Source: Abditibacteriota bacterium
GTDB lineage: Bacteria > Armatimonadota > UBA5829
NCBI GenBank assembly: GCA_017552965.1
Contig: JAFZNQ010000045.1
Location: forward strand, 1-40,748
Length of the DNA: 40,748 nt
Direction: 5' to 3'
This document shows, piece after piece, positions 14,047-32,074 of this stretch. Numbering within the stretch: the stretch's first letter is position 1; each line of letters opens with the position of its first letter. The position numbers and the translations under genes were made by a program. The notes beneath the pieces were generated by a model that made no database searches, had not been told where the DNA came from, and saw only the letters and a program-made list of their open reading frames with translations.

Positions 14047-14056
14047 TCTCTGCGCC

Positions 14057-14082
14057 TTTTGTCCCGTTCAATAATGCGTCAT
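14057..14082 (+). repeat. Bipartite intergenic motif, copy 1
   Basis: TTTT then GTCCCGTTC (14061-14069), seven variable bases and CGTCAT (14077-14082). It follows the glycosidase stop by about 10 bases. The same motif with exactly seven variable bases recurs at 28520-28545 and 31942-31967; GTCCCGTTC alone recurs at 14256-14264. Confidence 0.7.
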
Positions 14083-14133
14083 CCAGGCGTCTGGGGAGCA
14101 GCCGTATTGGTCAGCTCCCAGATCTGTGGCAGT

Positions 14134-14172
14134 GATTTCTCTTGCAGGATCTTCGATCCTGCAAGAGAAATC
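14134..14172 (+). repeat. Perfect 18-bp palindrome of the TTTCTCTTGCA family, copy 1
   Basis: Arms 14134-14151 and 14155-14172 pair without mismatch around a TTC loop; the arm begins GATTTCTCTTGCA. Copies sharing the TTTCTCT(T/C)TGCA core lie at 22034-22072 and 22247-22285. Each is followed within a few bases by the GTCATC anchor. There are only short T-tracts after this copy, so termination is doubtful. Confidence 0.75.
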
Positions 14173-14178
14173 TTATAT

Positions 14179-14245
14179 GTCATCCCGTCCCCAAGCCCGC
14201 AGGGCTTGGGGACGGGATCCCCTTCGATAGGAACGCGAGCCAAGG
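14179..14245 (+). repeat. GC-rich palindrome module with GTCATCCC anchor, copy 1
   Basis: A perfect 17-bp stem (14182-14198 with 14202-14218) around GCA, core CCCCAAGCCC/GGGCTTGGGG, followed by a tail GGATCCCCTTC...GCGAGCC. It is homologous to the modules at 22078-22170 and 24118-24210. There the stem has GGCCCC/GGGGCC where this copy has GTCCCC/GGGGAC, a paired change that keeps the helix. Confidence 0.75.
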
Positions 14246-14316
14246 CGTCTCTTCTGTCCCGTTCAATGTTCTGACCGCCGGCTCTTCTCCGCCTTTTACG
14301 GCCCACAAATGTCTTT

Positions 14317-14330
14317 CGTCATCTCGGCGC
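14317..14330 (+). repeat. Isolated anchor CGTCATCTCGGCGC
   Basis: The same 14 bases occur at 22292-22305. The upstream stretch 14246-14316 carries another GTCCCGTTC and CCGCCTTTTACGGCCC, the latter also resembling DNA near 25366 and 25686. Confidence 0.6.
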
Positions 14331-14346
14331 TCCCGGAAGCGTTTCA

Positions 14347-14425
14347 TTGCCCCGCTTATACGGCCCCTCCCACCGGCCCTCTCCGGCTTTGCCGGAGAAA
14401 GGAAAGGGCCGGCGGGCCCCACCGT
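14347..14425 (+). repeat. Structured intergenic element type A, copy 1
   Basis: Begins with a 21-base sequence around CCCCGCTTATACGGCCCC, identical to 25632-25652. Outer stem CCGGCCCT (14373-14380) with AGGGCCGG (14405-14412). Inside it a hairpin CTCCGGC-TTT-GCCGGAG (14381-14397) abuts the 5' arm, leaving AAAGGAA as the 3' spacer. The inverted copy at 22361-22400 keeps the outer stem and spacer but changes the inner stem in pairs. Confidence 0.7.
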
Positions 14426-14435
14426 GGATCCCTGA

Positions 14436-14498
14436 CCCAAAACGGCAAAAAGCATTCGCTTTTTATTACATAGCCGTTTTGGGCGGGATGACGCGGGG
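14436..14498 (+). repeat. Structured intergenic element type B, copy 1
   Basis: Outer stem CCCAAAACGGC (14436-14446) with GCCGTTTTGGG (14473-14483). Inner hairpin AAAAAGC-ATTC-GCTTTTT (14447-14464), 3' spacer ATTACATA, then anchor CGGGATGACGCGGGG. It lies 28 bases beyond the stop of the convergent minus-strand gene. The copy at 25448-25505 has a different sequence but the same fold and the same GC-ATTC-GC loop. Confidence 0.7.
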
Positions 14499-14526
14499 TT
14501 GCAGGCATGGACGCTTCCGCCGGCGG

Positions 14527-15633
14527 TCAGTCTCCGTTGATCTCGTTGACCAGCTCTGTGATGGCGGCGATCTTGTCTATCTCGCCCACCGAGGAAATTT
14601 CGTCGGAGACTCCCAGCACCAGGCGGGGAGCAAACATGCCGATGATCCTGCGGGTGAACTCCAGCAGATCCTTCAGAGGGTAGTCCCTGAGAAAATATAT
14701 GGCGGGGATGAGGTCCAGGCAGACTATCTCGTCGCCCACCGCCTCCTTTACTTCCTCGGGAGTGATGTTGCCCATGGGGGCAAAGGTGAGGGCCTCCACC
14801 GAGTCCAGGCCGCTGTCCTGCAGATAGGGCAGCATGGTGTGGGAGTTGCCGTCCCAGTGGCTGTGGACAAAGCGGCCGGCCTTGTGAAAGCGTTCCGACA
14901 GCCTCTGCCAGCGGGGGAGCATATACTTTTTCAGGATGGGAGGCGGAGTGAATTCGTCGGTGGCGTGGTCGCCCAGATTGAATATTTTGCAGTCCAGCTC
15001 CAGGGCGGCGTCCAGCATCCTGTCGTCCCGGCGGTCGCAGGCCTCCAGATATTCCTCCACCGCCTCCGGATAGTCATAGGTGAGGTAGGACGCGTCTATC
15101 AGGCCCGCCCAGTTTTTGATGAGCTCCGTATAGCCGGCGGAGCCCAGGATGATGGCGGGCTCGCCTCTGTCTCCCATCAGCCCGGCGTAGTGGCCGAACA
15201 CCTCTTTGTTGGCCCGGACGAGGGTATGCTCCGTGAGGTAGGTGACCACCTTCAGCTGTTCGGGAGTCTTGACCGGAAAGTCCTCTATCCTCTGGTTCGT
15301 CACTTTGCCCTCGTCGTCAAACACCAGATGATACACCGTGGTCAGGCTCCCCGCGGGGGTGTCTATGGTGACGAACCTTTGGCTGCCCTTTATCTCGTCA
15401 CGGCCCTGTATGCCGGCGTCTGGGTCGTGATAATACTCCACCCCCACGCTGGCCGCATAGCGTACCGAGCAGTCCAGGGCGTCATACAGCTCCAGATGTC
15501 CGCAGGAGCGGTATTTGTCGGGAAGAGTGCCCTGCTCTTTGTTTTTGAAATACCATTCTTCCAGCCTCGGCTGCCAAAGGACCTTGTCGGTCTTGTGTTC
15601 AAATATCGCCAGGTTCAGCTCTTTTTTAGTCAT
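14527..15633 (-). CDS. URO-D (uroporphyrinogen decarboxylase) family protein
   Basis: A 368-residue cytoplasmic protein with no signal peptide. Features of the URO-D TIM-barrel family include FAPMGNITPEEVKEAVGDEIVCL near residue 290, HSHWDGNSHTMLPYLQDSGLDSVEAL near 265 and LVLGVSDEI near the C terminus. Such divergent members in gut anaerobes are more like corrinoid-dependent methyltransferases (MtaA/CmuA type) than haem enzymes, and no haem genes are nearby. GGAGAC precedes the ATG. The gene is alone on the minus strand, with its own -10 box at 15679-15684. A second URO-D protein lies at 34436. The exact substrate is unknown. Confidence 0.75.
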   Translation of the reverse strand: MTKKELNLAIFEHKTDKVLWQPRLEEWYFKNKEQGTLPDKYRSCGHLELYDALDCSVRYAASVGVEYYHDPDAGIQGRDEIKGSQRFVTIDTPAGSLTTVYHLVFDDEGKVTNQRIEDFPVKTPEQLKVVTYLTEHTLVRANKEVFGHYAGLMGDRGEPAIILGSAGYTELIKNWAGLIDASYLTYDYPEAVEEYLEACDRRDDRMLDAALELDCKIFNLGDHATDEFTPPPILKKYMLPRWQRLSERFHKAGRFVHSHWDGNSHTMLPYLQDSGLDSVEALTFAPMGNITPEEVKEAVGDEIVCLDLIPAIYFLRDYPLKDLLEFTRRIIGMFAPRLVLGVSDEISSVGEIDKIAAITELVNEINGD

Positions 15634-15678
15634 AGTCTGTCTCCGTCGGGCGGCTCTGTCGGGCCGCGTGTCAAATAC

Positions 15679-15684
15679 ATTATA
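15679..15684 (-). promoter_or_regulatory. -10 box of minus-strand URO-D gene
   Basis: TATAAT on the minus strand, about 45 bases before the start codon. The leader can form a GCGGC/GCCGC hairpin. No good -35 box is seen. Confidence 0.45.
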
Positions 15685-15722
15685 CCATTTTTTTGGCCCG
15701 GCCGCCCCGGGACCGGGCGCTC

Positions 15723-15751
15723 TTTAAGAAAACCTCAAAAGGTGCTATAAT
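15723..15751 (+). promoter_or_regulatory. Probable promoter of the GerMN-murI operon
   Basis: TTTAAG (15723-15728), 17 bases, TATAAT (15746-15751), 37 bases before the start at 15789. The -10 box is perfect, the -35 box weak. Confidence 0.5.
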
Positions 15752-15788
15752 AATAGTGAACGATCCTCTATTCTTTACGGTTGACATT

Positions 15789-16379
15789 ATGAAAAACAGA
15801 TTCCTGGGGTGCCTGATACTCTTTGTGATAGGCGCCGGTCTCGTGGTAGGCGCCTATTTTGCGGGCAACGCCTTTGGCAGAAAGTATTCGGCGGAGATCT
15901 CCGCCGACAAGCCTCGGGTCATGGAGTCCGTACAGCCTTCGGTCCCCGACAAGGCTGCGGGCGTGCCTCTTTCACGGGGGAAGATCACCCTCTATATCCC
16001 CGATGAAAAGCAGGGCGAGGCGGCTGTCAGGTCTGTGCCCGGGGGCTTGCCGGACGATCCGGCCGGAGACAAGCTTACTCAGAGCATGGTGCTTTTGGTA
16101 AAAAGGCTGGTCCGGGACGGCATTCTCCCCCCCGACACCAGGCTGGTGGGCAAGGTGCGCGTCAGGAACTCCGTGGCCTCCGTCGATTTTTCCGAAGAGA
16201 TAAGGGGATTTTCCGGCAGCACTCTCGAAGAAGCCCAGCTGGCCAACAGCCTGGCCTCTACCGCCGTGGCCAACGGCGAGGGAGTGCAGAAGATACGCAT
16301 ACTGGTGTGCGGCTCCAAAGTAGAGACCCTGGGCGGGCATCTGGATCTCTCCGAGCCCTTCGGTCCCGATCTGCAATAG
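15789..16379 (+). CDS. GerMN-domain protein with N-terminal membrane anchor
   Basis: A 196-residue protein starting at ATG 15789, chosen because the TATAAT promoter lies between it and earlier in-frame starts. One transmembrane helix at residues 5-25 (GCLILFVIGAGLVVGAYFAG). Residues about 60-180 match the GerMN (spore germination/LpqB-like) domain: KITLYIPDEK, a charged stretch with LVKRLVRDGILPPDT, VRVRNSVASVDFSEE, and LEEAQLANSLASTAVANGEGVQKIRILVCG. Domains of this type are found in envelope proteins, also of non-sporeformers, and often sit beside murI, as here (nine bases apart). Probable role in the cell envelope; the molecular function is unknown. Confidence 0.75.
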   Translation: MKNRFLGCLILFVIGAGLVVGAYFAGNAFGRKYSAEISADKPRVMESVQPSVPDKAAGVPLSRGKITLYIPDEKQGEAAVRSVPGGLPDDPAGDKLTQSMVLLVKRLVRDGILPPDTRLVGKVRVRNSVASVDFSEEIRGFSGSTLEEAQLANSLASTAVANGEGVQKIRILVCGSKVETLGGHLDLSEPFGPDLQ

Positions 16380-16388
16380 GGAGCGGGG

Positions 16389-17703: not shown

Positions 17704-17705
17704 CC

Positions 17706-17813
17706 GTGAAAAAGATATATGCATTTGCAGACGCCTCTGCCGCGAGGGCTCAGGCTGTCGGCGGGCGGCGCGGCGCAGCGCCGAAGGACGCCCGGGCCCG
17801 GAGGGCCTGTTAG
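17706..17813 (+). CDS. Possible short leader peptide, 35 residues
   Basis: GTG at 17706 with AAGGAC about eight bases upstream, reading MKKIYAFADASAARAQAVGG then an Arg/Ala-rich tail, and stopping 11 bases before the HgdB-like gene. That gene lacks a good ribosome site of its own, so translation through this frame could help its start. The tail is encoded by very GC-rich palindromic DNA and may be meaningless. Confidence 0.25.
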   Translation: MKKIYAFADASAARAQAVGGRRGAAPKDARARRAC

Positions 17814-17824
17814 CCGGTACTGCC

Positions 17825-19099
17825 ATGGACAAGCGAACACAAGAGCCTGCGGGACACGGCTTCACCAACCCCGAGTTCACCCGGGAGATGCGCAAGACCT
17901 ACAGCATTCTCGCGCCGGATATATTTCCCATCCACATGGACCTCATCCGGCGTATCTTCAGATCCTACGGCTACAACATAGAGATACTCCGGTCCCGGGG
18001 CAAGCAGATCATAGAAAAGGGCCTCGAGCACATACACAACGACATGTGCTATCCCCTGATATGCATCGCGGGCCAGCAGCTCAGCGCTCTGGCCTCGGGG
18101 GAATACGACCCGGACAAGAGCGCCCTCATCATGTTTCAGACCGGCGGCGGGTGCCGCGCCTCCAACTATATCTGGCTGCTCCGAAAGGCGCTCAGGAGCA
18201 TGGGCATGGAGCAGGTGCCCGTGATCAGCCTGAGCCTGAACCGCATGGAAAGGTCCGGGGGCTTCAGGGTGTATCCCATGATGCTGGTCAAGACCATGGT
18301 AGCCATCATCTACGGCGATCTGCTGATGCTGCTCCGCAACCAGGTCCGCCCCTACGAAAAGGTGAAGGGGGAGACCGAGCGGACACTGAAAAAATGGTCC
18401 GAACGGCTCACGGACGAATTCCGCAAAAACAAGGGCCTCTTCGGCAGAGCCTTCAAAAACAACCTGCGGGCCATAGCCGGAGACTTTGACTCGATACCCA
18501 CCACAGACGTCAAAAAGACCAAGGTGGGCATAGTGGGCGAGATATACGTGAAGTATTCTCCCCTGGGCAACAACGGCTTGGAGGAGCTGCTGGACAGCCT
18601 GAACTGCGAATATATGGTGCCCGGCGTGCTGGGCTTCTTTCAGTTCATGTTTGACAACCGGCTCACCGACCAGAAGCTCTATGGCGGCAGCCGGGCGGGA
18701 GCCTGCGTGGCCGCTCTGGGAGGCCTGGTGGCCCGGCGCATAGAGAAGACCTTTACCGACGTGCTCCGGGAGTTCCCCCGCTTCACCGCCCCGGCGCCCT
18801 TTGAGCGCATCAGGGAGCTGGGGAGCGCCGTGATCGGCAGAGAGGTGAAGATGGGAGAAGGCTGGCTGCTGCCCGCCGAGGCGGCGGAGCTGATAGAAAA
18901 CGGCTACAACAACATCATCTGCGTCCAGCCCTTCGGCTGCCTGCCCAACCACATAGTGGGCAAGGGCACCATGCGCACCCTCAAGAAGCTGTATCCCCAT
19001 GCCAATATATGCCCCATCGACTACGACTCCGGCGCCTCCGGGGTGAATCAGGAAAACCGCATAAGGCTCATGCTGGCCATGGCAGAGGAACAGCAATGA
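17825..19099 (+). CDS. 2-hydroxyacyl-CoA dehydratase (HgdB-like) domain protein
   Basis: A 424-residue cytoplasmic protein like the C-terminal third of the giant acyl-CoA dehydratase activase-related proteins. Marks are NDMCYPLICIAGQQL near residue 75, GGGCRASNYIWLLRKAL near 113, KVGIVGEIYVKYSPLGNNGLEE near 235, and CVQPFGCLPNHIVGKG near 365. The cysteines in NDMCYP, GGGCR and PFGCLP are the probable iron-sulphur ligands. In the usual giant proteins this part comes after the activase domains; here it is a separate gene placed before them. Its stop overlaps the next start (ATGA). The substrate is unknown; such proteins belong to the dehydratase/BadFG reductase superfamily. Confidence 0.75.
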   Translation: MDKRTQEPAGHGFTNPEFTREMRKTYSILAPDIFPIHMDLIRRIFRSYGYNIEILRSRGKQIIEKGLEHIHNDMCYPLICIAGQQLSALASGEYDPDKSALIMFQTGGGCRASNYIWLLRKALRSMGMEQVPVISLSLNRMERSGGFRVYPMMLVKTMVAIIYGDLLMLLRNQVRPYEKVKGETERTLKKWSERLTDEFRKNKGLFGRAFKNNLRAIAGDFDSIPTTDVKKTKVGIVGEIYVKYSPLGNNGLEELLDSLNCEYMVPGVLGFFQFMFDNRLTDQKLYGGSRAGACVAALGGLVARRIEKTFTDVLREFPRFTAPAPFERIRELGSAVIGREVKMGEGWLLPAEAAELIENGYNNIICVQPFGCLPNHIVGKGTMRTLKKLYPHANICPIDYDSGASGVNQENRIRLMLAMAEEQQ

Positions 19100-21999
19100 A
19101 ACGCCTGGGGATAGACATAGGCTCCACCACCATGAAATGCGTGGTGGTGGATGAGGAGGGCCGGCTGCTCTTTTCCGACTATGACAGGCACATGGCCCGA
19201 ATAGGCGAAAAGCTGACAGCCCTGCTGGACAAGGCGGCAAAAGCCTTTCCCGGCGAGGAAATGGCGGCCGCCGTCACGGGCTCTGCGGGAATGGGCGTAT
19301 GCCGCAGGCTGGGGCTGCCCTTCGTGCAGGAGGTGTATGCCGCCCGGCTGGCTGTAAAAAGGCTCATGCCCGGGACGGACACGGTCATAGAGCTGGGAGG
19401 CGAGGACGCAAAGATCCTGTTTCTCAGGGACACCGAGGTGCGTATGAACGGCACCTGCGCCGGCGGCACGGGAGCCTTTATCGACCAGATGACCGAGCTG
19501 TTGTCCCTGACGCCCGCCGAGATGGAGCAGGCGGCTGAAAAGTGTGAGAAGATATACACCATAGCTTCCCGCTGCGGAGTGTTTGCCAAGTCGGACATAC
19601 AGCCCCTGCTGAACCAGGGGGTCCGCAAGGAGGACGTGGCGGGCAGCATCTTTTACGCCGTGGTCAACCAGACCATCGCAGGGCTGGCACAGAGCCGGGA
19701 GATCTCCGGCAACGTGCTGTATCTGGGAGGGCCCCTGACCTTTTTCCCCTATCTCCGCGAAGCCTTTGACAAGACCCTGGGCCTCAGGGGAGTATGTCCC
19801 CCGGACTCCCTGTTTTACGCCGCCATGGGAGCCGCCTTTTCTCCCGCCGCAAAACCCATGTTTCCCGGAGTCCCGGCGGACGCCGCCGACTTTTCCGAAG
19901 AAGGCTGGCCCCACTGCCCGCCCCTGTTCGCCGACAGAGAGGAATACGACAGGTTTGCGGCCAGGCACGAGGCCGACTCCGCCGGCCTGACCTTTCTGGA
20001 CCGGCCCCGGGGCACCATGTTCCTGGGCATAGACGCGGGCTCCACCACGGTGAAGGCCCTGCTCACGGACAGCGAGGGCAACATCTTTTTCCCCATGTAC
20101 ACCCAGGGCAGCGGAGATCCGGTGGGCTGCATCAGGAAGTATCTCCTGGAGCTCTATGACAAATGGCCCGACGTCCGGATAGGCGGCTCCGCCGTCACCG
20201 GCTACGGCGAGCAGATCATCCAAAACGCCTTTTCCGCGGATATGGGCGTGGTGGAGACCATAGCCCACTTTACCGCCGCCTCCCGTTTTTGTCCCGACGT
20301 GGATTTTATTATAGACATAGGCGGACAGGACATCAAGTGCTTTCACATCCGCAACAGGGCCATAGACAGCATCTTTCTCAACGAAGCCTGCTCCTCCGGG
20401 TGCGGCTCCTTTTTGCAGACCTTTGCCGCGGTGCTGGGCTTCGGCCCGTCTGAATTTGCCCAAAAGGCCCTGTTTGCCGACAGGCCCGTGGACCTGGGCA
20501 GCCGCTGCACCGTGTTTATGAACAGCTCGGTCAAGCAGGCCCAGAAGGACGGGGCGTCCCTGGAAAACATATCCGCCGGGCTGGCGGTCAGCGTGGTGAA
20601 GAACGCCCTTTACAAGGTGATCCGCTGCGCCGACCCCTCCCGGCTGGGAGAGCATATAGTGGTGCAGGGCGGCACCTTTCTCAACGACGCGGTGCTGAGG
20701 GCTTTTGAGCAGGAGACGGGCAAGCAGGTCCTCAGGCCCTCCGTGTCCGGGCTGATGGGCGCCTACGGCGCCGCCCTCTACGCTATGGAGCGCCGGCCAG
20801 CCAAAAGCTCCCTCTGCGGCCCGGAAGAGCTCAGAAACTTTGAACACAAGACCCGGGCCGTGACCTGTCAGGGCTGCTCCAATCACTGCGGGCTGACGGT
20901 GAACACCTTTTCCGGCGGCCGGAGGTTCATCGCCGGCAACCGGTGCGAAAAGCCCCTGCAGCTCTCCAGCTCCCTGAAGCCTCTGGACCTGTATCGCTAC
21001 AAGTATTCCCTGTTGGAAGGATATATGCAGGGGGAGATCGTTCCCGGCAAGACCAACGTGGGCCTGCCCATGGGGCTCAATATGTATGAGCTGCTGCCCT
21101 TCTGGCACACCCTGTTCAGCGAGCTGGGCTTCAATCCGGTGGTCAGCGGCAGGTCCGACTACGGGCTGTATGTCAGCGGCCAGCACACCATCCCTTCGGA
21201 CACGGTGTGCTATCCGGCCAAGCTGCTCCACGGCCATATGGAGCGCCTCATAGCCATGAAGCCGGAGATCATCTTCTATCCGGGCATGAGCTACAACGTG
21301 GATGAAAAACGGGGCCGCAACCATTACAACTGCCCGGTGGTGGCCTATTATCCGCGGCTCATAGGCGCCAACGTCCGGATACCCGAAGGCGTCCGCTATA
21401 TAGACAGATTCATCGGCCTGGCTGACAGGAAGGGCTTCCCCGCCAGATTCCGGCAGCTCATGAAGGAAGAAGGCTTTGTTCTTGCGCCCGGCGACGTAAA
21501 GGCGGCCGCCAGGGCAGCCTTTGCGGAATACGACGGCTATATGCGCAGGGTCAGAGAGCAGGCGGCAGAATATTTGCGTGAAGCGGAAAAGGACGGCCGG
21601 CCGGTCATCGTGCTGGCGGGCAGGCCCTATCACGTGGACCCGGAAGTCAACCACGGCATCAACACCCTTATCACCCAGCTGGGAGGAGTGATAGTCACCG
21701 AGGATTCGGTGGCGGATCTGGCAGGCCCCGTGGAGACCACGGTCCTCGATCAATGGACCTATCATTCCCGGCTCTATACCGCGGCGGAATGGACCGCCCG
21801 CCAGAGCGACAGGGTGAACCTGGTGCAGCTGGTGAGCTTTGGCTGCGGCGTGGACGCCGTGACCAGCGACGAGGTGAGGGCCATACTGGAAAGCCGCGGC
21901 AAGCTCTACACCCAGATCAAGATAGACGAGATCACCAACCTCGGCGCGGTGAAGATACGGCTGCGGAGCCTCTTTGCCGTGGCCGGAGTCAAGAGCTGA
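19096..21999 (+). CDS. Acyl-CoA dehydratase activase with two BadFG/HgdC ATPase domains plus DUF2229
   Basis: A 967-residue protein. The ATG at 19096 has GAGGA upstream and overlaps the previous stop. Domain 1 (residues 3 to about 255) and domain 2 (about 312-580) are each BcrAD/BadFG/HgdC-type ASKHA ATPases: GIDIGSTTMK and GIDAGSTTVK phosphate loops, AGGTGAFIDQM and ACSSGCGSFLQTFA iron-sulphur cysteine regions. From about 595 comes a CxxC pair (CQGCSNHCG), then the DUF2229 domain (GLPMGLNMYELLPFWHTLF, SDTVCYPAKLLHGH, GRPYHVDPEVNHGI). HgdC proteins use ATP to push electrons into 2-hydroxyacyl-CoA dehydratases; what this fused form activates is not established. The partner is probably the gene just upstream. 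Confidence 0.85.
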   Translation: MKRLGIDIGSTTMKCVVVDEEGRLLFSDYDRHMARIGEKLTALLDKAAKAFPGEEMAAAVTGSAGMGVCRRLGLPFVQEVYAARLAVKRLMPGTDTVIELGGEDAKILFLRDTEVRMNGTCAGGTGAFIDQMTELLSLTPAEMEQAAEKCEKIYTIASRCGVFAKSDIQPLLNQGVRKEDVAGSIFYAVVNQTIAGLAQSREISGNVLYLGGPLTFFPYLREAFDKTLGLRGVCPPDSLFYAAMGAAFSPAAKPMFPGVPADAADFSEEGWPHCPPLFADREEYDRFAARHEADSAGLTFLDRPRGTMFLGIDAGSTTVKALLTDSEGNIFFPMYTQGSGDPVGCIRKYLLELYDKWPDVRIGGSAVTGYGEQIIQNAFSADMGVVETIAHFTAASRFCPDVDFIIDIGGQDIKCFHIRNRAIDSIFLNEACSSGCGSFLQTFAAVLGFGPSEFAQKALFADRPVDLGSRCTVFMNSSVKQAQKDGASLENISAGLAVSVVKNALYKVIRCADPSRLGEHIVVQGGTFLNDAVLRAFEQETGKQVLRPSVSGLMGAYGAALYAMERRPAKSSLCGPEELRNFEHKTRAVTCQGCSNHCGLTVNTFSGGRRFIAGNRCEKPLQLSSSLKPLDLYRYKYSLLEGYMQGEIVPGKTNVGLPMGLNMYELLPFWHTLFSELGFNPVVSGRSDYGLYVSGQHTIPSDTVCYPAKLLHGHMERLIAMKPEIIFYPGMSYNVDEKRGRNHYNCPVVAYYPRLIGANVRIPEGVRYIDRFIGLADRKGFPARFRQLMKEEGFVLAPGDVKAAARAAFAEYDGYMRRVREQAAEYLREAEKDGRPVIVLAGRPYHVDPEVNHGINTLITQLGGVIVTEDSVADLAGPVETTVLDQWTYHSRLYTAAEWTARQSDRVNLVQLVSFGCGVDAVTSDEVRAILESRGKLYTQIKIDEITNLGAVKIRLRSLFAVAGVKS

Positions 22000-22033: not shown

Positions 22034-22077
22034 GGTTTCTCTTGCAAGATCGGAGAACTTGCAAGAGAAACCTTTTT
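22034..22077 (+). terminator. Palindrome/terminator after the activase operon (TTTCTCTTGCA family, copy 2)
   Basis: A perfect 15-bp stem, GGTTTCTCTTGCAAG (22034-22048) with its complement (22058-22072), followed by TTTTTT. It lies 35 bases after the stop at 21999 and runs straight into the GTCATCCC anchor of the next module. Confidence 0.75.
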
Positions 22078-22170
22078 TGTCATCCCGGCCCCAAGCCCTG
22101 CGGGCTTGGGGCCGGAACCCCCTTCAACAGAGCCGCGAGCCCCGGCAACGGCCAAGCCCAACAGGACAAA
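22078..22170 (+). repeat. GC-rich palindrome module, copy 2; 93-bp direct repeat
   Basis: Anchor GTCATCCC, a 14-bp stem CCGGCCCCAAGCCC-TGC-GGGCTTGGGGCCGG (22085-22115), then the tail ending AACAGGACAAA. It matches 24118-24210 with three mismatches over 93 bases. The two copies bracket the EVE/TM2 patch. Confidence 0.85.
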
Positions 22171-22246
22171 AGCCCCGCTCTTCCCGTCAACCCGACAGCC
22201 CTCTCCAACCTCATCCCGGCGATCGTTCTTCGATCGAGGGCTTTTG

Positions 22247-22305
22247 TTTTCTCTCTGCAAAGCCGCAGGCTTTGCAGAGAGAAAACTTTTTCGTCATCTC
22301 GGCGC
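22247..22305 (+). repeat. Perfect 18-bp palindrome plus anchor (TTTCTCTTGCA family, copy 3)
   Basis: Arms 22247-22264 and 22268-22285 pair perfectly around GCA; then CTTTTT and the anchor CGTCATCTCGGCGC (22292-22305). Just upstream is a smaller palindrome CGATCG-TTCTT-CGATCG (22220-22236) after TCATCCCGG. Confidence 0.75.
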
Positions 22306-22340
22306 GGCCGGCAATAGGATCTTCAGGCCGGCCGCGGCAA

Positions 22341-22415
22341 GAGATCCCAGGAGGGGCCCTCCGGCCCGTTCCTTGCTCCGTCGGAGACGGAGAGGGCCGG
22401 TGGGAGGACCCTGGC
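22341..22415 (-). repeat. Structured intergenic element type A, copy 2 (inverted)
   Basis: Outer stem CCGGCCC (22361-22367) with GGGCCGG (22394-22400); inner hairpin CTCCGTC-GGA-GACGGAG (22376-22392). Read on the minus strand it has the same order as 14373-14412, with spacer CAAGGAAC. Inner CTCCGTC/GACGGAG replaces CTCCGGC/GCCGGAG, a compensated pair. The rest of the gap, 22416-22670, shows no gene I can support. Confidence 0.65.
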
Positions 22416-22673
22416 TCATGTCCATGCGGGAAGTGCGTTTGCTGATAGCGGAAGGGGGCCATTCGGCGGAGGACAGTAAAACCCCCGAACAAAAATCTTC
22501 ATAAAAAACTTCCGCCTCATGCCCGCCGATCTGCGGCGGTTTTCCCCTACTCCCGTGCGACGATCCTACAAAACCACGCACTGAAAACCCTATTCCCTAC
22601 GCATATCATACAAATATTCGGCCTCTGGTCTAACCAAAGCCCCGATATGTCCAATAAAAGTTTAGACAGAAGT

Positions 22674-23168: not shown

Positions 23169-23169
23169 A

Positions 23170-23925
23170 ATGGCCGTATTACGCTGTCCGAATTGCCACC
23201 ATCAGATCGCTTACAACGCCAAAAGATGTTATCACTGCGGATTGGAATATACTTCAACCATGCACTTCATTGCTCTCGATAACATGTCTAAGGAGATCGC
23301 TGAGGAGCGTGCGCAAGCACTTGAATTCCGAAAAGAAAACCCATTTATTATAGACGAAGAAGGTATCTTAAAGAAATACATAGGATTAGACAAAGATGTA
23401 AAGATCCCGGACGGGGTAACGCAAATCGGTGAGTATGCGTTTGAGGAATGCAGCATCAATACTGTAATCATCCCCGATAGTGTGACCGCAATAGATCGCT
23501 GTGCTTTTAAAAACTGTAAATCTTTGACCAAGGTCACCATCCCCAAAAGTGTGACCGCAATAGGATTCTGGGCTTTTGAAAACTGTAAATCTTTGACCAA
23601 GGTCACCATCCCCTGCAGGGAGAACGAAATTGATCACCATGCATTTGTAGGCTGTTATCATCTGACCGAGCTCACCATCCATGGGAACAAGATAGATCTT
23701 GAGAAAAATGATCCATTTCGAATCTCAGAACTCGACACACTAAGTCTTTTTCTGTTTTGTCTATTTTTTGGTTTTCTTGGAGTACATAAGTTTGTTGAAG
23801 GCAAAACCGGCATGGGGATTTTATATGCTTGTACCGCCGGCTTATTTTATATAGGGTGGCTCGCAGATCTTGTTGGTTACATAGTTCTATTATCTAAGGG
23901 GGTGAAGTGGGTTATTCCAAAATGA
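23170..23925 (+). CDS. Zinc-ribbon / leucine-rich repeat / TM2-domain membrane protein
   Basis: A 251-residue protein starting two bases after the EVE-like frame, behind GGGAGAT. Residues 6-23 form a zinc ribbon (CPNC...CYHC; Cys6, 9, 20, 23). Residues about 60-180 are BspA-like LRR_5 repeats (IPDGVTQIGEYAFEECS, IPDSVTAIDRCAFKNCKSLTKV, IPKSVTAIGFWAFENCKSLTKV). Residues about 190-250 are a TM2 domain with two helices (LFLFCLFFGFLGVHKFVEGK, GLFYIGWLADLVGYIVLL). Repeats and ribbon would face the cytosol. Such parts are known singly; the full role is unknown. Lower GC than its neighbours suggests transfer. Confidence 0.8.
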   Translation: MAVLRCPNCHHQIAYNAKRCYHCGLEYTSTMHFIALDNMSKEIAEERAQALEFRKENPFIIDEEGILKKYIGLDKDVKIPDGVTQIGEYAFEECSINTVIIPDSVTAIDRCAFKNCKSLTKVTIPKSVTAIGFWAFENCKSLTKVTIPCRENEIDHHAFVGCYHLTELTIHGNKIDLEKNDPFRISELDTLSLFLFCLFFGFLGVHKFVEGKTGMGILYACTAGLFYIGWLADLVGYIVLLSKGVKWVIPK

Positions 23926-23987: not shown

Positions 23988-24046
23988 ATTATAAGCCCCG
24001 GCAGGCGCTGTGCACCTGCCGGGGCTTATAATTGAGCCGAGATGAC
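23988..24046 (+). repeat. 18-bp palindrome plus anchor after the TM2 gene
   Basis: Arms 23988-24005 and 24015-24032 (core ATAAGCCCCGGCAGG) pair perfectly around CGCTGTGCA; then anchor CCGAGATGAC (24037-24046) and ATTGGGTTG. A further GGGATGAC lies at 24075-24082. The stem may terminate the TM2 transcript though no T-run follows on the plus strand. Confidence 0.7.
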
Positions 24047-24117
24047 ATTGGGTTGTCAGTACAACGCCGCCGCTGGGATGACCGGAGAAAAATGGGGATC
24101 GGCGGCGGGGAAAACGG

Positions 24118-24210
24118 TGTCATCCCGGCCCCAAGCCCTGCGGGCTTGGGGCCGGAACCCCCTTCAATGGAACCGCGAGCCCCGGCAACGGCCAAGCCCA
24201 ACAGGACAAA
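24118..24210 (+). repeat. GC-rich palindrome module, copy 3; 93-bp direct repeat
   Basis: Same as 22078-22170 apart from three bases; stem 24125-24138 with 24142-24155. It ends 27 bases before the first TCTTTACTT repeat of the Fic promoter. Confidence 0.85.
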
Positions 24211-25426: not shown

Positions 25427-25447
25427 GTGCCCCCGAAGGTCTCTTAC

Positions 25448-25505
25448 CGGAAAATGCCTGAAACGCATTCGCGTTTCATCGGTATACATTTTCCGCCGAG
25501 ATGAC
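25448..25505 (+). repeat. Structured intergenic element type B, copy 2
   Basis: Outer stem CGGAAAATG (25448-25456) with CATTTTCCG (25487-25495); inner hairpin TGAAACGC-ATTC-GCGTTTCA (25459-25478); spacer TCGGTATA; anchor CCGAGATGAC (25496-25505). All arms differ from copy 1 but all still pair. Confidence 0.7.
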
Positions 25506-25545
25506 GCCGTGAGCTATGCCGGCGGACCCGACCTGGATCTCAAAG

Positions 25546-25601
25546 CGCAAACGGCTTTACGCTGTCGCGTTTGATATGTTGCCGTTTGCGCAGAGATGAC
25601 A
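25546..25601 (+). repeat. Structured intergenic element type B, copy 3
   Basis: Outer stem GCGCAAACGGC (25546-25556) with GCCGTTTGCGC (25582-25592); inner ACGC-TGTC-GCGT (25560-25571); spacer TTGATATGTT; anchor GAGATGAC (25594-25601) followed by ACGCGGGG. Confidence 0.65.
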
Positions 25602-25631: not shown

Positions 25632-25798
25632 TTGCCCCGCTTATACGGCCCCTTCCACCTGTCGCCTCACGCAAACCTTCTCTCCGCCTTTGTACGGCCC
25701 CCCCAACGGCTTTCAGCCGTCGGTGCCCCCGTAGATCTCCAACGGTGGCGAAGGTCCCGCCACCGCTGGGATGACGGCGGAGTGAGCGGCGGGATGAC
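25632..25798 (+). repeat. Mosaic of intergenic modules before the kor operon
   Basis: Starts with the 21 bases shared with 14347-14367. Then small hairpins (ACGGC/GCCGT about 25714) and an 8-bp stem CGGTGGCG (25743-25750) with CGCCACCG (25758-25765) followed by anchor GGGATGAC (25768-25775), and another anchor GGGATGAC (25791-25798). Short open frames here lack ribosome sites and are not supported as genes. Confidence 0.55.
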
Positions 25799-25833
25799 TC
25801 GCGGGGCTCTGGCGATAGACCCATGGGCCTTTC

Positions 25834-25862: not shown

Positions 25863-25898
25863 ATTATATGGTGACAATCTGTTGCCGGAGGAGATCCT

Positions 25899-28451: not shown

Positions 28452-28492
28452 GCCCGCGGGCTGTTGGCGTAAGACTGCCGAAATATGAATAG

Positions 28493-28523
28493 AGCAGGTC
28501 TCGTGCGAGACCTGCTATTTTTT
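28493..28523 (+). terminator. Intrinsic terminator of the kor operon
   Basis: Stem AGCAGGTCTCG (28493-28503) with CGAGACCTGCT (28506-28516), then ATTTTTT. It is followed at once by GTCCCGTTC of the bipartite motif. Confidence 0.85.
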
Positions 28524-28552
28524 GTCCCGTTCATTTTAACGTCATATCGGCG
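28524..28552 (+). repeat. Bipartite intergenic motif, copy 2, with anchor
   Basis: GTCCCGTTC (28524-28532), seven variable bases, CGTCATATCGGCG (28540-28552). Same spacing as the copies at 14061 and 31946. Confidence 0.7.
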
Positions 28553-28616
28553 ACAAGCCGATAGGCTTGGCGGTAAGATATCCCGAACGATAGAAATGCC
28601 GGCCTTCGTTTCCGAC

Positions 28617-28860
28617 AGGCCAGAGCGGGACAAAAGGAAAGACCCTTTTTGACTAACTTCCCCCGGCGGTGGGCCTGTGTCGTTCCCGGGGTTCGCCGAC
28701 AGTTTGATCGAGATTTCTTACCGCCTGTGCCCTGCGGCACAGGCGCCGAAATGACGGGGTCCCCGACCGCCGGATCAGCGAGGACGACACCCCGGGGACG
28801 GGATCCCCTTCAACAGAGCCGTCGGCCTTCGGCCACGGACAAGCCAGAGCGGGACAAGAA
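28617..28860 (+). repeat. Mosaic of intergenic modules between kor and the metallophosphatase
   Basis: Contains CAGAGCGGGACAAAAGG (about 28620), an inverted relative of CCTTTTGTCCCGTTC. Then a 10-bp palindrome CGCCTGTGCC-CTGC-GGCACAGGCG (28722-28745) leading into GCCGAAATGAC, and from about 28795 a shortened copy of the GC-rich module tail (GGGGACGGGATCCCCTTC...ACAAGCCAGAGCGGGACAA). No gene is supported in 28452-28957. Confidence 0.6.
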
Positions 28861-28895
28861 ACGCCCTTCGCGGGCGCTTACGCGCCTACGAATGG

Positions 28896-28939
28896 CAAAA
28901 AAATGTGTGTCCGCAGGCGCAAAGCGCCTGCGGACACAC
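28896..28939 (-). terminator. Terminator of the rng/metallophosphatase operon
   Basis: Perfect 16-bp stem GTGTGTCCGCAGGCGC (28905-28920) with its complement (28924-28939) around AAA; on the minus strand seven T follow. It lies 19 bases past the minus-strand stop. Confidence 0.85.
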
Positions 28940-28957
28940 TCTGTTTCCCGCGTTTTG

Positions 28958-29971
28958 TTATTTGATGAGCCCCAGGGGCTTCCAGTATTTTTCGAGAATG
29001 GCCTTTGCTTCCGGGTCGTCCGGGTATTCGGAGGTCATGGGCACCAGCTTTGCCGTGTATTTGCCCACGGCCCAGGAGCCGTCCTGCTGCTTGCATATCT
29101 TCAGGTCTATGCGGCCTGTGGCCACTCCGTATTCGCCTGCCGAGCAGACTATTACTCCGTTCACGTTCTTGTCCCGGACAGGCCTGCCCGCGGCGGAAAA
29201 GAGAGGCGTCGGCAGCCAAGTGTGGGTGTGTCCGCCCACGATCAGGTCGATGTCCTTGCAGCGGTTGGCCATGACCATATCGTCTATGATGCCGGCGTGG
29301 GACAGGCAGATGATCAGGTCGGTCCGGCTCTTCAGCTCTTCCACCACCTTTGCCGCTTCGTCCACGGCGTCAGTGAACTCGTAGCCCTCCGTGGACTTGT
29401 AAGACGCGCTGGAGGGCGCTGTCACTGAGAATATGCCTATCCGCAGCCCCTCCGCTTCCTTGATGATATAGGGGGTAAAGGCTCTCTTGCCGTCCTTATA
29501 GACGTTGGCGCACAAAAAAGGAAAACGGGCTTCCTTTTGCCTCTCGGCCAGTATGTCCATGGACGCGGGAGTCGGCTTGCCCTTGTATTCGTCCCCCTTG
29601 AATTCGTTGTTGCCTATGGCCGCCGCATCGTATTTCATCAGGTTCATCAGCTCTATGTCGGGCTTGCCCTCCAGTCTGCGGGCGGGGCCCCGGGTAAAGA
29701 TGTCGCCGGCGTCCAGCAGCAGCACCGTGTGCTGCGTGTATTTGCGCACCGATTTGATATAGGAGGCTCTTCTGCATACGCCCCCCACGTCTTCGGTGAC
29801 GCCCAGGGCGGCGGCGTCGGGCTCCGTGTAGCTCTCATGAGGGAGCAGCATGCCGTGGACGTCGTTGGTAAACAGCACTGTCAGGGCGGCGTCTCCGGCG
29901 CCGCAGCCGCATTGAAGCAGCAGCCCCAGCAGCAGCGCCGCGATAATGATGTGGTGTAGCTTCTTAAACAT
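28958..29971 (-). CDS. Metallophosphatase, 5'-nucleotidase (UshA-like) family, probable lipoprotein
   Basis: A 337-residue exported protein. The N terminus MFKKLHHIIIAALLLGLLLQCGCG is a signal peptide with a lipobox-like LLQC, so lipid anchoring is likely. The calcineurin-like fold is shown by LFTNDVHGMLL (metal site 1), LLLDAGDIFTRGP, AIGNNEFKGD (GNxE in place of the usual GNHE/D), LIICLSHAG and IVGGHTHTWLP. The usual C-terminal nucleotide-binding domain of UshA is absent: the protein is only the phosphoesterase half. Substrate is a phosphate monoester or nucleotide outside the membrane. Its start overlaps the end of the RNase gene by eight bases. Confidence 0.85.
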   Translation of the reverse strand: MFKKLHHIIIAALLLGLLLQCGCGAGDAALTVLFTNDVHGMLLPHESYTEPDAAALGVTEDVGGVCRRASYIKSVRKYTQHTVLLLDAGDIFTRGPARRLEGKPDIELMNLMKYDAAAIGNNEFKGDEYKGKPTPASMDILAERQKEARFPFLCANVYKDGKRAFTPYIIKEAEGLRIGIFSVTAPSSASYKSTEGYEFTDAVDEAAKVVEELKSRTDLIICLSHAGIIDDMVMANRCKDIDLIVGGHTHTWLPTPLFSAAGRPVRDKNVNGVIVCSAGEYGVATGRIDLKICKQQDGSWAVGKYTAKLVPMTSEYPDDPEAKAILEKYWKPLGLIK

Positions 29972-31658
29972 ATGTGCCTCTTCCGGTTCTTATTCGCGCC
30001 GCAGCGTGACTTCCGAACACTTCCTTTATCTTGATATTGACTGTCTTGCCTATATATTTGCTGCCGTGCGGTATCTCGACCAGATGTCTGCCGATCCAGC
30101 AGACAGCCTTGTCTTCCCGCGCGCACAGGTTCCTTTCCAGGCGCACGCTGAACACGTCGCCCGGGGTCAGCTGCTTTTGCAGCTCTTCGGCCTTGGCCCG
30201 GGAGCAATTGGCCAGCGAGTAGTCCTCTATGTGCATCAGGCTGTCGCCTCTGACGTATATGGGCAGCCCGTACAGCTCCTCCAGCTCCCGGATGTTGGCG
30301 CCGCCGTCTCCTATGAGAAAGAGCGCCGTCCGCGGGTTGGCCTTGATATACAGCCCGTAGTCCCGTTCGGTCTTGTGGAGAAAGCTGCGTATGTCTCTTT
30401 CGATCCTCAGGCTCACCGTCTCGCTGCTTTCCACCCTGCCTCTGCCGTTGCAGTAGGGGCACACCTCGGTCATGGCTTCGCCCACGGTCTCGGACACCCT
30501 TTTGCGGTTCAGCTCTATGAGCCCCAGGTCCGATATGCGGGATATGCTGGTCTTGGTGCGCTCCTTGCTGAGAGCGGCGGCGAGAGCCCTGATGAGCTTG
30601 TCTCTGTCGCTCTGGCTCACCATATCTATAAAGTCCACGACGATGATGCCTCCCAGATCCCTCAGGCGTATCTGGCGGGCTATCTCGGCGGCGGCCTGCA
30701 GATTGGTGGTCAGCACCGTCTCCGTGAGGGACTTGTTGCCCACGAATTTGCCTGTGTTGACGTCGATCACCGTCAGGGCTTCCGCTATGTCTATGCAGAT
30801 ATAGCCTCCGTTCTGGAGCCATATCTTGCGTTTGAACATCTGCTGATAGTCCCTCTCCAGGCCAAAGCGTTCGAATATGGGCAGCTTGTCGTTGTAATGC
30901 CTGATCCTGCCCGTGAGCTGGGGCGCCAGGGCGCCGGCCAGCTCCTTTGCCTTTTTGTACTTGGCTTCCGAGTCTATATACATGCAGCTCACGTCCTGAG
31001 TCAGGTTGTCCCGTATGACCTTGTAGATCAGCGACAGCTCCTGATACACCACCGCCGGCGCCTGGACTGCCCGGGCGTTCTCGCTGATGGAGCTCCATAT
31101 CCTGACCATGGTGTCTATGTCATGGCTGATCTCTTCCTCGGTCCTGCCCTCCGCCTCTGTCCTGGCGATGATGCCGAACCCGGGGGGGCGTATGGCTTCC
31201 AGCAGGGCCTTCAGCCGGTCGTGCTCGGCGGGGCCTATCCGTTTGCTGATGCCGATGGAGTCGGATTCGGGCATCAGGACTATATATCTGCCGGGCAGGG
31301 TGATCTTGGTGGATACTCTCGCGCCCTTGGCTGCTCTGGGAGCCTTGACCACCTGGACCAGGAACTCCTGGCCTTCCCGGATCATACCCGTGATGGAATG
31401 GGCCCGGAGGGGCTTGCGGGGCTTGGAGCCGGCCAGATAGGGCAGGATGTCCCCCGAATACAGAAACGCGTTCTTTTCCATCCCTATATCCACAAAGGCG
31501 GCGTCCATGCCGCTGAGGACGTTTTTCACCTTGCATTTGTATATATTGCCCACCACTCCGCCGGAGCGTTCCACATACACCTCTGCCAGCCTGTTGTCCT
31601 CAACTATGGCCACTCTGGTCTCTCTGTTTTGCACGTTTACGACAATGTCGCTTTTCAC
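29964..31658 (-). CDS. rng: Ribonuclease E/G
   Basis: A 564-residue endoribonuclease of the RNase G size class. The start is GTG at 31658 behind GGAGGAG. An S1-like RNA-binding part lies at residues about 35-115 (GNIYKCKVKNVLSGMDAAFVDIG), then the catalytic core with IDVNTGKFVG (Asp299) and GGIIVVDFIDM (Asp342/Asp345), and the zinc-link CPYCNGRGR (Cys400, Cys403). The end has YIGKTVNIKIKEVFGSHAAARI, a TRAM-like strand set beyond the core, as in plant and cyanobacterial relatives. It processes rRNA and decays mRNA. It is first in a minus-strand operon with the metallophosphatase. Confidence 0.92.
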   Translation of the reverse strand: MKSDIVVNVQNRETRVAIVEDNRLAEVYVERSGGVVGNIYKCKVKNVLSGMDAAFVDIGMEKNAFLYSGDILPYLAGSKPRKPLRAHSITGMIREGQEFLVQVVKAPRAAKGARVSTKITLPGRYIVLMPESDSIGISKRIGPAEHDRLKALLEAIRPPGFGIIARTEAEGRTEEEISHDIDTMVRIWSSISENARAVQAPAVVYQELSLIYKVIRDNLTQDVSCMYIDSEAKYKKAKELAGALAPQLTGRIRHYNDKLPIFERFGLERDYQQMFKRKIWLQNGGYICIDIAEALTVIDVNTGKFVGNKSLTETVLTTNLQAAAEIARQIRLRDLGGIIVVDFIDMVSQSDRDKLIRALAAALSKERTKTSISRISDLGLIELNRKRVSETVGEAMTEVCPYCNGRGRVESSETVSLRIERDIRSFLHKTERDYGLYIKANPRTALFLIGDGGANIRELEELYGLPIYVRGDSLMHIEDYSLANCSRAKAEELQKQLTPGDVFSVRLERNLCAREDKAVCWIGRHLVEIPHGSKYIGKTVNIKIKEVFGSHAAARIRTGRGTYV

Positions 31659-31685
31659 GGGGGCTCCTCCGTATTACAACTTCCG

Positions 31686-31719
31686 ATTATATTATAACAT
31701 GAGACGGCAGGAATCACAA
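31686..31719 (-). promoter_or_regulatory. Promoter of the rng operon
   Basis: On the minus strand TTGTGA (31714-31719), 17 bases, TATAAT (31691-31696), with a second overlapping TATAAT (31686-31691). Confidence 0.6.
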
Positions 31720-31863
31720 AACCGGGGCCCCGCCCCCGGCAAAAAGTGTCCGCCGACATCCGGCCAGCGTCGTAGGTGTATAAAGCCCTTTGACCGCCGG
31801 GTCCTTCTCCTCATGGTGCAGGCTCCGTTCTCCGGCGAGGATGCATTCTCCCGTTGGAAAGTG

Positions 31864-31891
31864 GCCTTTGGCGGCGGTTGCCGCCAAAGGC
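31864..31891 (+). repeat. Perfect 12-bp palindrome in the divergent region
   Basis: GCCTTTGGCGGC-GGTT-GCCGCCAAAGGC. It lies between the rng promoter and the bipartite motif; 31720-31863 holds nothing else I can name. Confidence 0.55.
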
Positions 31892-31903
31892 ATAATTAAA
31901 TAA

Positions 31904-31967
31904 TGTGTGTCGGCAGGACCTTGCCCTGCCGACACACACCCTTTTGTCCCGTTCGATCACACGTCAT
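31904..31967 (+). repeat. Palindrome plus bipartite motif, copy 3
   Basis: Stem TGTGTGTCGGCAGG (31904-31917) with CCTGCCGACACACA (31925-31938), then CCCTTTT, GTCCCGTTC (31946-31954), seven bases and CGTCAT (31962-31967). The arm AATGTGTGTCGGCAGG matches 15 of 16 bases of the terminator at 28902, so related palindromes stand at both ends of the rng operon. Confidence 0.7.
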
Positions 31968-32012
31968 TTTGCCGCCGGGAAGACGGTATCGGCAAAATAT
32001 TTTGTACGAGAG

Positions 32013-32043
32013 TTGCAGCCCGGGGGCTCCGATATGCTATAAT
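32013..32043 (+). promoter_or_regulatory. Promoter of the sugar-kinase operon
   Basis: TTGCAG (32013-32018), 19 bases, TATAAT (32038-32043), with GGAGG at 32065-32069. Confidence 0.55.
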
Positions 32044-32074
32044 AAATACGAATAAGCAGGGCGTGGAGGTCGTT

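Follow-up and report, generated by a model that had tools for sequence, protein, structure and literature searches.

CGTC-tagged REP elements in an Abditibacteriota genome and a GIY-YIG nuclease as their candidate partner

Introduction

Repetitive extragenic palindromic (REP) elements with a CGTC tag, including dRS3 of Neisseria and RPE-4 and RPE-6 of Rickettsia, are described in the cited passages of Di Nocera et al. (2013, PMC3733652) as hairpins with an A-T first pair and a CGTC (TGTC, CCTC) tag at one end, high in copy number, intergenic, often in inverted pairs and without a transposase. According to the same passages, these repeats are not associated with transposase genes, no gene for a REP-associated tyrosine transposase (RAYT) is flanked by them, and CGTC REPtrons may have vanished early; the neisserial CGTC-1 elements correspond to dRS3 and are interleaved with other repeats in intergenic mosaics (PMC3733652). 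Here we describe a mosaic of CGTC-tagged hairpins in a 40,748-nucleotide contig of an Abditibacteriota bacterium (JAFZNQ010000045.1, assembly GCA_017552965.1), the whole of which is called the window hereafter, together with small GIY-YIG nuclease genes that lie between inverted copies of such elements in the same genus and beyond it.

In REPtrons, a RAYT gene is located between inverted GTAG REPs. The arrangement described here resembles them in that a small nuclease gene is bracketed by inverted copies of a genome-dispersed repeat and that several paralogues accompany differing repeat subtypes, and it departs from them in having a GIY-YIG nuclease and a CGTC tag in place of the HUH/Y1 transposase and the GTAG tag. 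A further parallel is Ssn of Neisseria, reportedly a GIY-YIG nuclease specific for single-stranded DNA, whose repeated target NTS is said to modulate transformation. The proteins of the window's genus (the home proteins) are likewise small single-domain GIY-YIG proteins, are homologous to a gonococcal protein that is also encoded between CGTC-tagged hairpins, and differ in that one genome holds four paralogues with composite targets. Compared with the neisserial mosaics that contain dRS3, the present one belongs to another phylum and has other stems and nested frames.

A literature search of titles and abstract beginnings returned, among the matches listed, no publication linking a GIY-YIG protein with bacterial REPs. 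In the cited passages of PMC9465073, RayT and a GIY-YIG protein both figure in a list of clade-specific Moraxella genes, with no connection drawn between them. For Neisseria and relatives, the pairing of GIY-YIG and CGTC may be partly in print already.

Results

A CGTC-tagged unit recurs in the intergenic gaps

An earlier sequence-only reading of the window had described its long gaps as variable palindromes next to a constant anchor. The anchor CGTCATCTCGGCG, allowing up to two mismatches, has 12 matches in the window, whereas 100 shuffles gave 1.54 on average and never more than 6. The genome-wide search proposed in that reading (2.78 Mb, up to one mismatch) returned 283 copies, and a single one for the reversed pattern, so that the mosaic was confirmed and the anchor is far more frequent than chance would give. 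All the forward sites near 14179, 14318, 22079, 22293, 24119 and 28541 are present, as are the complement sites at 24039, 24075, 25498, 25594, 25768, 25791 and 28748, and the forward site proposed at 31963 turned out to be a degenerate, truncated copy (31942-31974). A sample of 347 kb was assembled from the window and 20 stretches picked around anchor matches, and is element-rich for that reason. In it, 29 of 134 anchors fall inside open reading frames (ORFs) of at least 200 aa, which make up 84% of the bases. High copy number and mostly intergenic placement are what is expected of a CGTC-tagged REP.

The sample contains 58 units built of a CGTC or TGTC tag, a 5-mer, GG, a variable hairpin, GNAA, the reverse complement of the 5-mer and C. 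They amount to 51 distinct 3' partners, since some tags share a partner with an inner unit, and a non-complementary control partner gave none. The outer 5-bp stem covaries (ATCTC/GAGAT, ATCCC/GGGAT, ACTTC/GAAGT and others), the 5-mer being ATCTC in 36 units, ATCCC in 12, ACTTC in 6, ATTTC in 3 and ATATC in 1. The tag, GG, GNAA and the first A-T pair were set by the search pattern, outside which variants exist; the first pair therefore provides no independent evidence, and the second is T-A in 52 units and C-G in 6. Between the outer stem and the inner hairpin lies an asymmetric internal loop (GG/GNAA). The inner hairpin ranges from CGCCTC..GAGGCG to more than 40 nt with an internal loop of its own, and in some cases encloses another entire hairpin.

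The palindrome therefore varies while the tag, the internal loop and the pairing persist. The earlier description of a changing palindrome beside an unchanging anchor is right as to the tag, which is mostly CGTC, and has to be amended for the next five bases, which vary jointly with their partner. The anchor is not strictly constant either, as TGTC and GGTC tags occur and the GG after the 5-mer is not universal (TG at 25594, AG at 25768). In the 17 copies of the larger frame called type A, changes on both sides were found in six inner-stem and two outer-stem pairs. The covariation score was 0.342 against 0.113 in shuffles (reached in 0 of 500) and at most 0.103 in slid alignments, figures which are not probabilities because the copies are related.

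Comparison with the CGTC superfamily

An unpaired CGTC or TGTC stands at the palindrome end in all 58 units, and because of this tag, the first stem pair, the copy number and the placement we assign the units to the CGTC-tagged REPs. They depart from the elements in the cited passages of PMC3733652 in several respects: the 8-9 bp stem with a 4-5 nt loop is replaced by a 5-bp outer stem, a GG/GNAA loop and a long variable inner hairpin, within elements of 96-187 nt, and the CCA tail of most described members by C followed by CCC, TCC, TAC or others. As stem length, loop and tail fit none of the families CGTC-1 to CGTC-4 as described there, the units appear to form a new composite family of the superfamily. 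The comparison with REP elements and their guide tetranucleotide in the sequence-only reading was therefore right in kind, in view of the CGTC tag and its hairpin. Its statement that no described family has this anchor does not hold, the first four bases being the tag of the cited passages (PMC3733652).

A search of the window against Rfam gave no family at gathering score, and a scan of viral contigs returned no exact match.

Units are built into larger nested frames

The units are built into larger nested frames, which we named types A, A', B, C and D. The neighbours of the anchor are not random, contrary to an outcome that the sequence-only reading had named as refuting; many of the palindromes represent a few recurrent frames. 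Type A consists of TGTCCCGTTCA, a few bases, the unit, CCCT..GAACCGCGAGCC.. and AACGGGACA, and has 19 matches in the sample, 105-127 nt long except two longer nested ones. A covariance model built from 17 type A copies found at least 134 matches in the home genome (with 150 of 1611 candidates scored). The same model gave 20 matches in the congener G002, where 12 of the 17 matches listed span the hairpin part only, and none in the congener G001. Type B (CCCCG, unit, C, TACGG..CCGTA, T, CGCGGGG) has 11 matches of 96-187 nt. Folded together, 7 copies give a three-way junction as consensus, the covariation term being close to zero.

Another hairpin of the mosaic, type E (TTCGGGG[TC]CCCC..GGGGTGAA), gave filled and empty pairs for 8 of 16 queries, so at least one kind of mosaic hairpin has inserted precisely. 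The clearest pair shows a 3-base duplication on reading of the alignment. Type E copies with empty counterparts lie inside other elements at L045 10063-10098, L038 19800-19835, L033 5201-5237 and others (strand coordinates); the clearest cases have duplications TAA and AAT, the two TAA cases being in similar frames and perhaps not independent.

GIY-YIG genes lie between the elements in the home genus

The elements are confined to two of the three genomes of the genus, the anchor being present 283 times in the home genome (G000), 81 times in G002 and 3 times in G001. Twelve other family members contain 2-14 anchors, and reversed controls 2-11. Among the genome contigs of 84,980 species, from which close relatives of the window may be left out, a single locus showed the full pattern, in the Abditibacteriota metagenome-assembled genome RGIG10284 from yak rumen, whose contig carries the same element as the G002 contig C208. 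One window protein searched in the same collection gave no relative.

A scan of ten proteins, most of them adjoining elements, first revealed a small GIY-YIG ORF. Repeated genes beside elements were considered as carriers in the same scan and rejected, since they belonged to SLH and GxGYxYP families and included no mobile enzyme. The candidate partner is a single-domain protein of about 100 aa (PF01541). The family search returned four small genes in G000, two in G002 and none in G001, besides one further match in G000 (a frame of 642 aa) and one in G001 (625 aa), which we regard as UvrC because of their size. The six home proteins are intact and 56-64% identical to the first row of the alignment, with nonsynonymous divergence (dN) of 0.18-0.37 and synonymous divergence (dS) undefined through saturation in 13 of 15 pairs. 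Their closest solved relatives by sequence are the UPF0213 proteins 1zg2 (E 9e-7) and 1ywl (E 3e-4), both annotated as hypothetical in their records.

All six home genes have anchors within 300 bp on both sides, inward in five, compared with 9 and 6, respectively, of 206 control ORFs from the element-rich sample. The home counts allow G as first tag base, which the control pattern did not; with the tag limited to C or T, the home figures become 5/6 and 4/6, and the control figures are the same under either pattern (9/206 and 6/206). By reading of the sequences, the flanks are of type D at L084 and L088, D' at L087, C at L089, the G002 frame at L085, and A' plus A at L090. In a tree of 55 homologues, the six home genes form one clade (100/100), within which L085 pairs with L090 (100/94), both having short GTAA-type hairpins, and L084 with the likewise D-like L087 (98/82). 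At L087, 71-nt inverted repeats (1205-1275 and 2034-2104; 99% identical) are located immediately outside the cassette tags, the inner elements being only 76% alike.

A search for Y1/RAYT genes in the three congeners (97, 91 and 84% complete) gave no match at E 0.001, and Y1 genes are present in 6 of 15 genomes of the family. The sequence-only reading had proposed to look for a RAYT/Y1 or other enzyme gene carrying the element at its ends: its suggestion of REP-like elements with an enzyme gene between them was borne out, with GIY-YIG as the enzyme, whereas RAYT/Y1 gave no match in the congeners and the elements are not undescribed at superfamily level. Judged as a REPtron, the layout has its enzyme gene between inverted REPs, with GIY-YIG in the place of the Y1/HUH gene.

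Bracketing extends through the phylum

A profile of the six home proteins recovered 55 genes in 47 of 291 genomes of the phylum. Three with short flanks were omitted, leaving 52, six of them from the home genus. GTCAT occurs upstream, and inverted downstream, within 300 bp of 33 of these 52 genes, or 28 of 46 without the home genes. As this motif had been picked after the home loci were seen, all 1024 5-mers and all 256 tags were enumerated. GTCAT ranked first of the 5-mers for inward copies on both sides (next CGTCA with 19 and CGCCG with 18), and when a tag plus hairpin was required GTCA ranked first of the tags with 18 of 52, the next reaching 9. In flanks 900-1200 bp away, GTCAT was found on both sides in 1 of 39. 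None of five usable Y1 loci was flanked by GTCAT on both sides (L095, the sixth, was left out). Among the units listed, those nearest to the gene differ in stem between many genomes of the phylum. Genomes with the common REP stem GTCATYCTGAGCGNAGCGAAGRATC have the enzyme in 16 of 37 cases against 31 of 254 others (Fisher 2e-5; overlap counted by hand; the genomes are related and not independent).

Bracketing in three further phyla and cassettes in REP-poor replicons

Homologues were found in 32 records of a plasmid collection, some of chromosome size. We examined 18, the other 14 coming from genera already sampled. Two of the records are chromosomes by size filed as plasmids: NZ_CP119140.1 (N. 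gonorrhoeae, 2.17 Mb) and NZ_AP026896.1 (A. caviae, 4.94 Mb). In three further phyla, Neisseria included, inward tagged hairpins bracket the gene on both sides at 12 of 18 loci by a scripted count, which lets a hairpin overlap the last 30 bases of the ORF and so adds Aeromonas. A later, tag-free hairpin scan, applied only to the seven loci failing the first test, brought this to 13 of 18 inward and 15 of 18 in any orientation; it confirmed Aeromonas, showed that the Novosphingobium gene too has a CGTC hairpin on either side, and found CCTC-type hairpins, not all inward, on both sides at two Sinorhizobium loci.

The longest exact inverted identity between left and right flanks is 32 nt in Azospirillum, 33 in Rhizobium CIAT894, 26 in Neisseria gonorrhoeae, 31 in two Sphingobium, 27-28 in three Shinella, 29 in Novosphingobium and 18 in Neorhizobium, and only 7-12 nt at the remaining eight loci. 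Mismatched left/right pairs (294) average 9 nt, with a 95th percentile of 13 and a maximum of 31. The N. gonorrhoeae homologue, which we take to be Ssn, sits between copies of GTCATTCCCGCGCAGGCGGGAATC, which are CGTC-tagged hairpins and whose stem is probably the dRS3/CGTC-1 element; the home proteins L087 and L090 share 45% and 40% identity with it over 85 aa.

In some records the repeat is rare and located at the gene, counting matches with up to one mismatch, so that more diverged copies escape. The Aeromonas caviae record (4.94 Mb) has three copies of GTCATYCCCGCGNAGGCGGGRATC, none of them farther than about 120 bp from the gene match, and the Neorhizobium record (1.76 Mb) contains GTCATCCYNGGGCTTGACCCNRGGATCC three times, all within about 150 bp of the gene. 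Of the seven matches in Rhizobium CIAT894 (718 kb), six are no more than about 600 bp from the gene and one is 1.6 kb away. At the gene are also 3 of 9 matches in Azospirillum and, in the three Shinella records, 4 of 11, 4 of 10 and 1 of 23. The N. gonorrhoeae record has 138, of which, among the matches listed, six on the forward strand fall within 1.5 kb around the gene. Reversed-pattern controls gave none in all eight records.

Related records differ in whether a conserved gene pair has the cassette between its members. In Azospirillum it is located between sufB and sufC and is absent there in four other Azospirillum records, its junctions being too diverged for exact boundaries. In Shinella it lies between an amidohydrolase gene and a carbon-nitrogen hydrolase gene and is missing in other Shinella, as judged from two-piece matches. 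Around the cassettes of Rhizobium and Spirosoma, a search for empty sites turned up no informative filled/empty pair among the matches listed.

At the Planktothrix locus L149 the GIY-YIG gene is flanked by genes annotated as MmeI and DISARM drmA, in what looks like a defence locus.

Elements of the window

The elements of the window are as follows.

14160..14265, + strand: type A variant with tag at 14179, GTCATCCCGTCCCCAAGCCC..GGGCTTGGGGACGGGAT (covariance model E 2e-7).
14317..14433, + strand: anchor at 14318; 14366-14433 is 84% complementary to 22340-22407, that is, module D inverted.
14428..14492, - strand: tagged hairpin GTCATCCCGCC..GGGAT.
22073..22168, + strand: type A variant with the same hairpin as the variant at 24119 (covariance model E 6e-8), preceded by a hairpin and T-run at 22034-22078.
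22293..22420, + strand: tagged hairpin at 22293-22345 with stem ATCTC/GAGAT and loop GCAA; after it comes module D (CCTCCGGCCCGTTCCTTGCTCC..GGAGAGGGCCGGTGGGAGG), the kind of element between which the GIY-YIG genes L084 and L088 lie.
24035..24047, - strand: anchor TGTCATCTCGGCT, adjoining a near-perfect hairpin at 23988-24032 (95%).
24072..24082, - strand: anchor GTCATCCCAGC.
24119..24199, + strand: type A variant, GTCATCCCGGCCCCAAGCCCTGCGGGCTTGGGGCCGG with right half AACCGCGAGCCCCGGC.. (covariance model E 2e-8, model positions 20-102), 97% identical to 22078-22170.
25439..25505, - strand: tagged hairpin GTCATCTCGGCGGAAAATGTATACC..GGCATTTTCCGGTAAGAGAC, with one outer-stem mismatch.
25537..25600, - strand: tagged hairpin GTCATCTCTGCGCAAACGGCAACATATCAAACGC..CCGTTTGCG..GAGAT.
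25754..25798, - strand: two anchors (25775, 25798) and a short hairpin.
28523..28632, + strand: complete type A element, TGTCCCGTT ... CGTC hairpin ... AGCGGGACA, hairpin ATATC/GATAT (covariance model E 8e-23; it is one of the 17 rows that built the model and so matches by construction).
28541..28581, + strand: tagged hairpin P2, CGTC-ATATC-GG-CGACAAGCC..GGCTTGGCG-GTAA-GATAT, with a perfect outer stem.
28662..28774, - strand: type A' element with outer stem CGGCGGTC / CACCGCCG and hairpin 28713-28755 ATTTC/GAAAT (covariance model E 5e-14).
28768..28851, + strand: partial type A-like element (covariance model E 1e-4).
31942..31985: truncated type A start on the + strand (31942-31974) and a degenerate anchor on the - strand (31973-31985).

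Terminator-like hairpins with T-runs stand immediately before the tag at 22034-22078 and 22241-22291. The segment 21993-25826, which holds elements, a repeat-containing ORF (23170-23925) and a Fic/HTH (helix-turn-helix) gene, is absent from G002, whose syntenic contig C222 has a gap of only about 50 bp in its place (one junction compared). Elsewhere in the window, the ORFs 399-2663, 2718-5483, 5539-7767 and 8073-9767 (within 1-9767) share tandem repeats of about 250 bases, 38138-38418 and 40467-40747 form a direct duplication with 88% identity, and 19009-21999 and 31907-33037 hold BadF/BcrA-type genes, the first with a DUF2229 domain.

Discussion

Taken together, these results suggest that the mosaic is probably a burst of CGTC-tagged REP elements with a GIY-YIG nuclease as their dedicated partner, arranged like a REPtron in which GIY-YIG has replaced the RAYT. 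The enzyme is the strongest candidate for the partner that this large class of bacterial repeats has so far lacked. The nuclease likely recognises the hairpin; we propose that it would do so through the tag and the folded structure in single-stranded DNA, and would cut beside the tag. Host repair or replication of the cut could then spread the hairpins, and sometimes the gene with them, and hairpin-templated copying might keep the stems paired while their sequence drifts. Stems that stay paired and change in sequence fit hairpin-templated correction and selection on a folded substrate alike. More tentatively, CGTC REPs throughout the bacteria might be a second kind of REPtron, namely non-autonomous single-stranded hairpins mobilised by a hydrolytic GIY-YIG enzyme that reads tag and loop and not the stem, here developed into nested multi-junction composites with paralogues matched to subtypes. 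Stems would be free to evolve under such a scheme because the nuclease would recognise the tag and the structural loop.

A number of observations weigh against the partnership. Both cleavage by the nuclease and mobilisation of the hairpins are steps that we infer, and GIY-YIG enzymes hydrolyse DNA, so that a cut alone transposes nothing. Joined-flank queries with CGTC units (types A, B, C and P2, many overlapping) gave no filled/empty pair in 82, and the type E hairpins that did give such pairs are not CGTC units. Home gene L090 has outward anchors nearest to it, and enzyme and element subtype are not matched throughout, because L088, with D flanks, groups with L085 and L090 (90/84) and not with the other D-type genes. 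Across the phylum, outward GTCAT copies near the genes are also common (161 inward, 101 outward), and 21 of the 37 genomes with stem GTCATYCTGAGCGNAGCGAAGRATC lack a GIY-YIG match at E 1e-12, G011 (193 copies) and G226 (124 copies) being among them. Enzyme and stem co-diverge weakly: leaving out the home genus, r was 0.21 (24 of 2000 permutations), and at protein identity below 0.7 it was 0.15 (113 of 2000). At 3 of 18 loci outside the phylum (Photobacterium and two Rhizobium) hairpins stand on one side only. As for the covariation, pairs changed on both sides numbered 8 against 6.7 in shuffles and pair types 17 against 16.5, which is no excess, and in alignment A1 two of five measures did not rise above shuffles (90/500 and 248/500).

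It is highly improbable, in our opinion, that the GIY-YIG gene is a passenger for which REP-rich intergenic DNA is merely a harmless site, the repeats being unrelated to it. The home genome is indeed element-dense, 9 of 206 control ORFs are anchored on both sides as well, and the N. gonorrhoeae record has 138 repeat matches. Mere REP-rich surroundings would not, however, produce the REP-poor records in which all matches with up to one mismatch lie at the gene (3 of 3 in both Aeromonas and Neorhizobium), nor inverted, stem-matched copies flanking it in several phyla, with a signal that is gone 900-1200 bp away (1/39). A transposase of the Y1/HUH type, since lost or acting from elsewhere, would account for the REP-like anatomy, and Y1 genes do occur in 6 of 15 family genomes, but the lack of any match to such genes in the three congeners, the finding that GTCAT brackets none of the five usable Y1 loci and the statement in the cited passages of PMC3733652 that no RAYT is flanked by CGTC repeats make this scarcely credible. 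We also find it very doubtful that the hairpins are host-serving RNA structures, such as terminators or mRNA stabilisers, kept by selection on transcripts and devoid of a mobile history; they do covary, fold into a three-way junction in type B (with its covariation term near zero), are intergenic and are in some cases followed by T-runs (22034-22078), but copy numbers of 283, 81 and 3 among congeners, the nesting of units in one another and the lack of any Rfam family at gathering score in the window argue otherwise.

The nuclease might instead cut hairpins to control uptake or recombination of single-stranded DNA, without mobilising them, the repeats having spread by other means. The position of the N. 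gonorrhoeae homologue between GTCATTCCCGCGCAGGCGGGAATC copies, the parallel with Ssn and NTS as reported, and the hydrolytic chemistry of GIY-YIG enzymes speak for such a role. We regard it as unlikely on the whole, since it accounts neither for the bracketing of the gene itself, nor for the presence or absence of the cassette at a conserved gene pair, nor for the way in which the repeats track the enzyme within the genus.

Whether the CGTC REPs have an enzyme, and which one, was an open question in the cited passages of Di Nocera et al. (2013, PMC3733652). GIY-YIG genes that lie between inverted CGTC hairpins in four phyla point, for each genome, to a specific enzyme and a specific substrate, and a single purified protein with a few oligonucleotides would suffice to put the question to the test. 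The rumen lineage provides a natural series of paralogues with differing composite hairpins from which the rules of recognition may be read, and a case of DNA repeats that conserve base pairing but not sequence.

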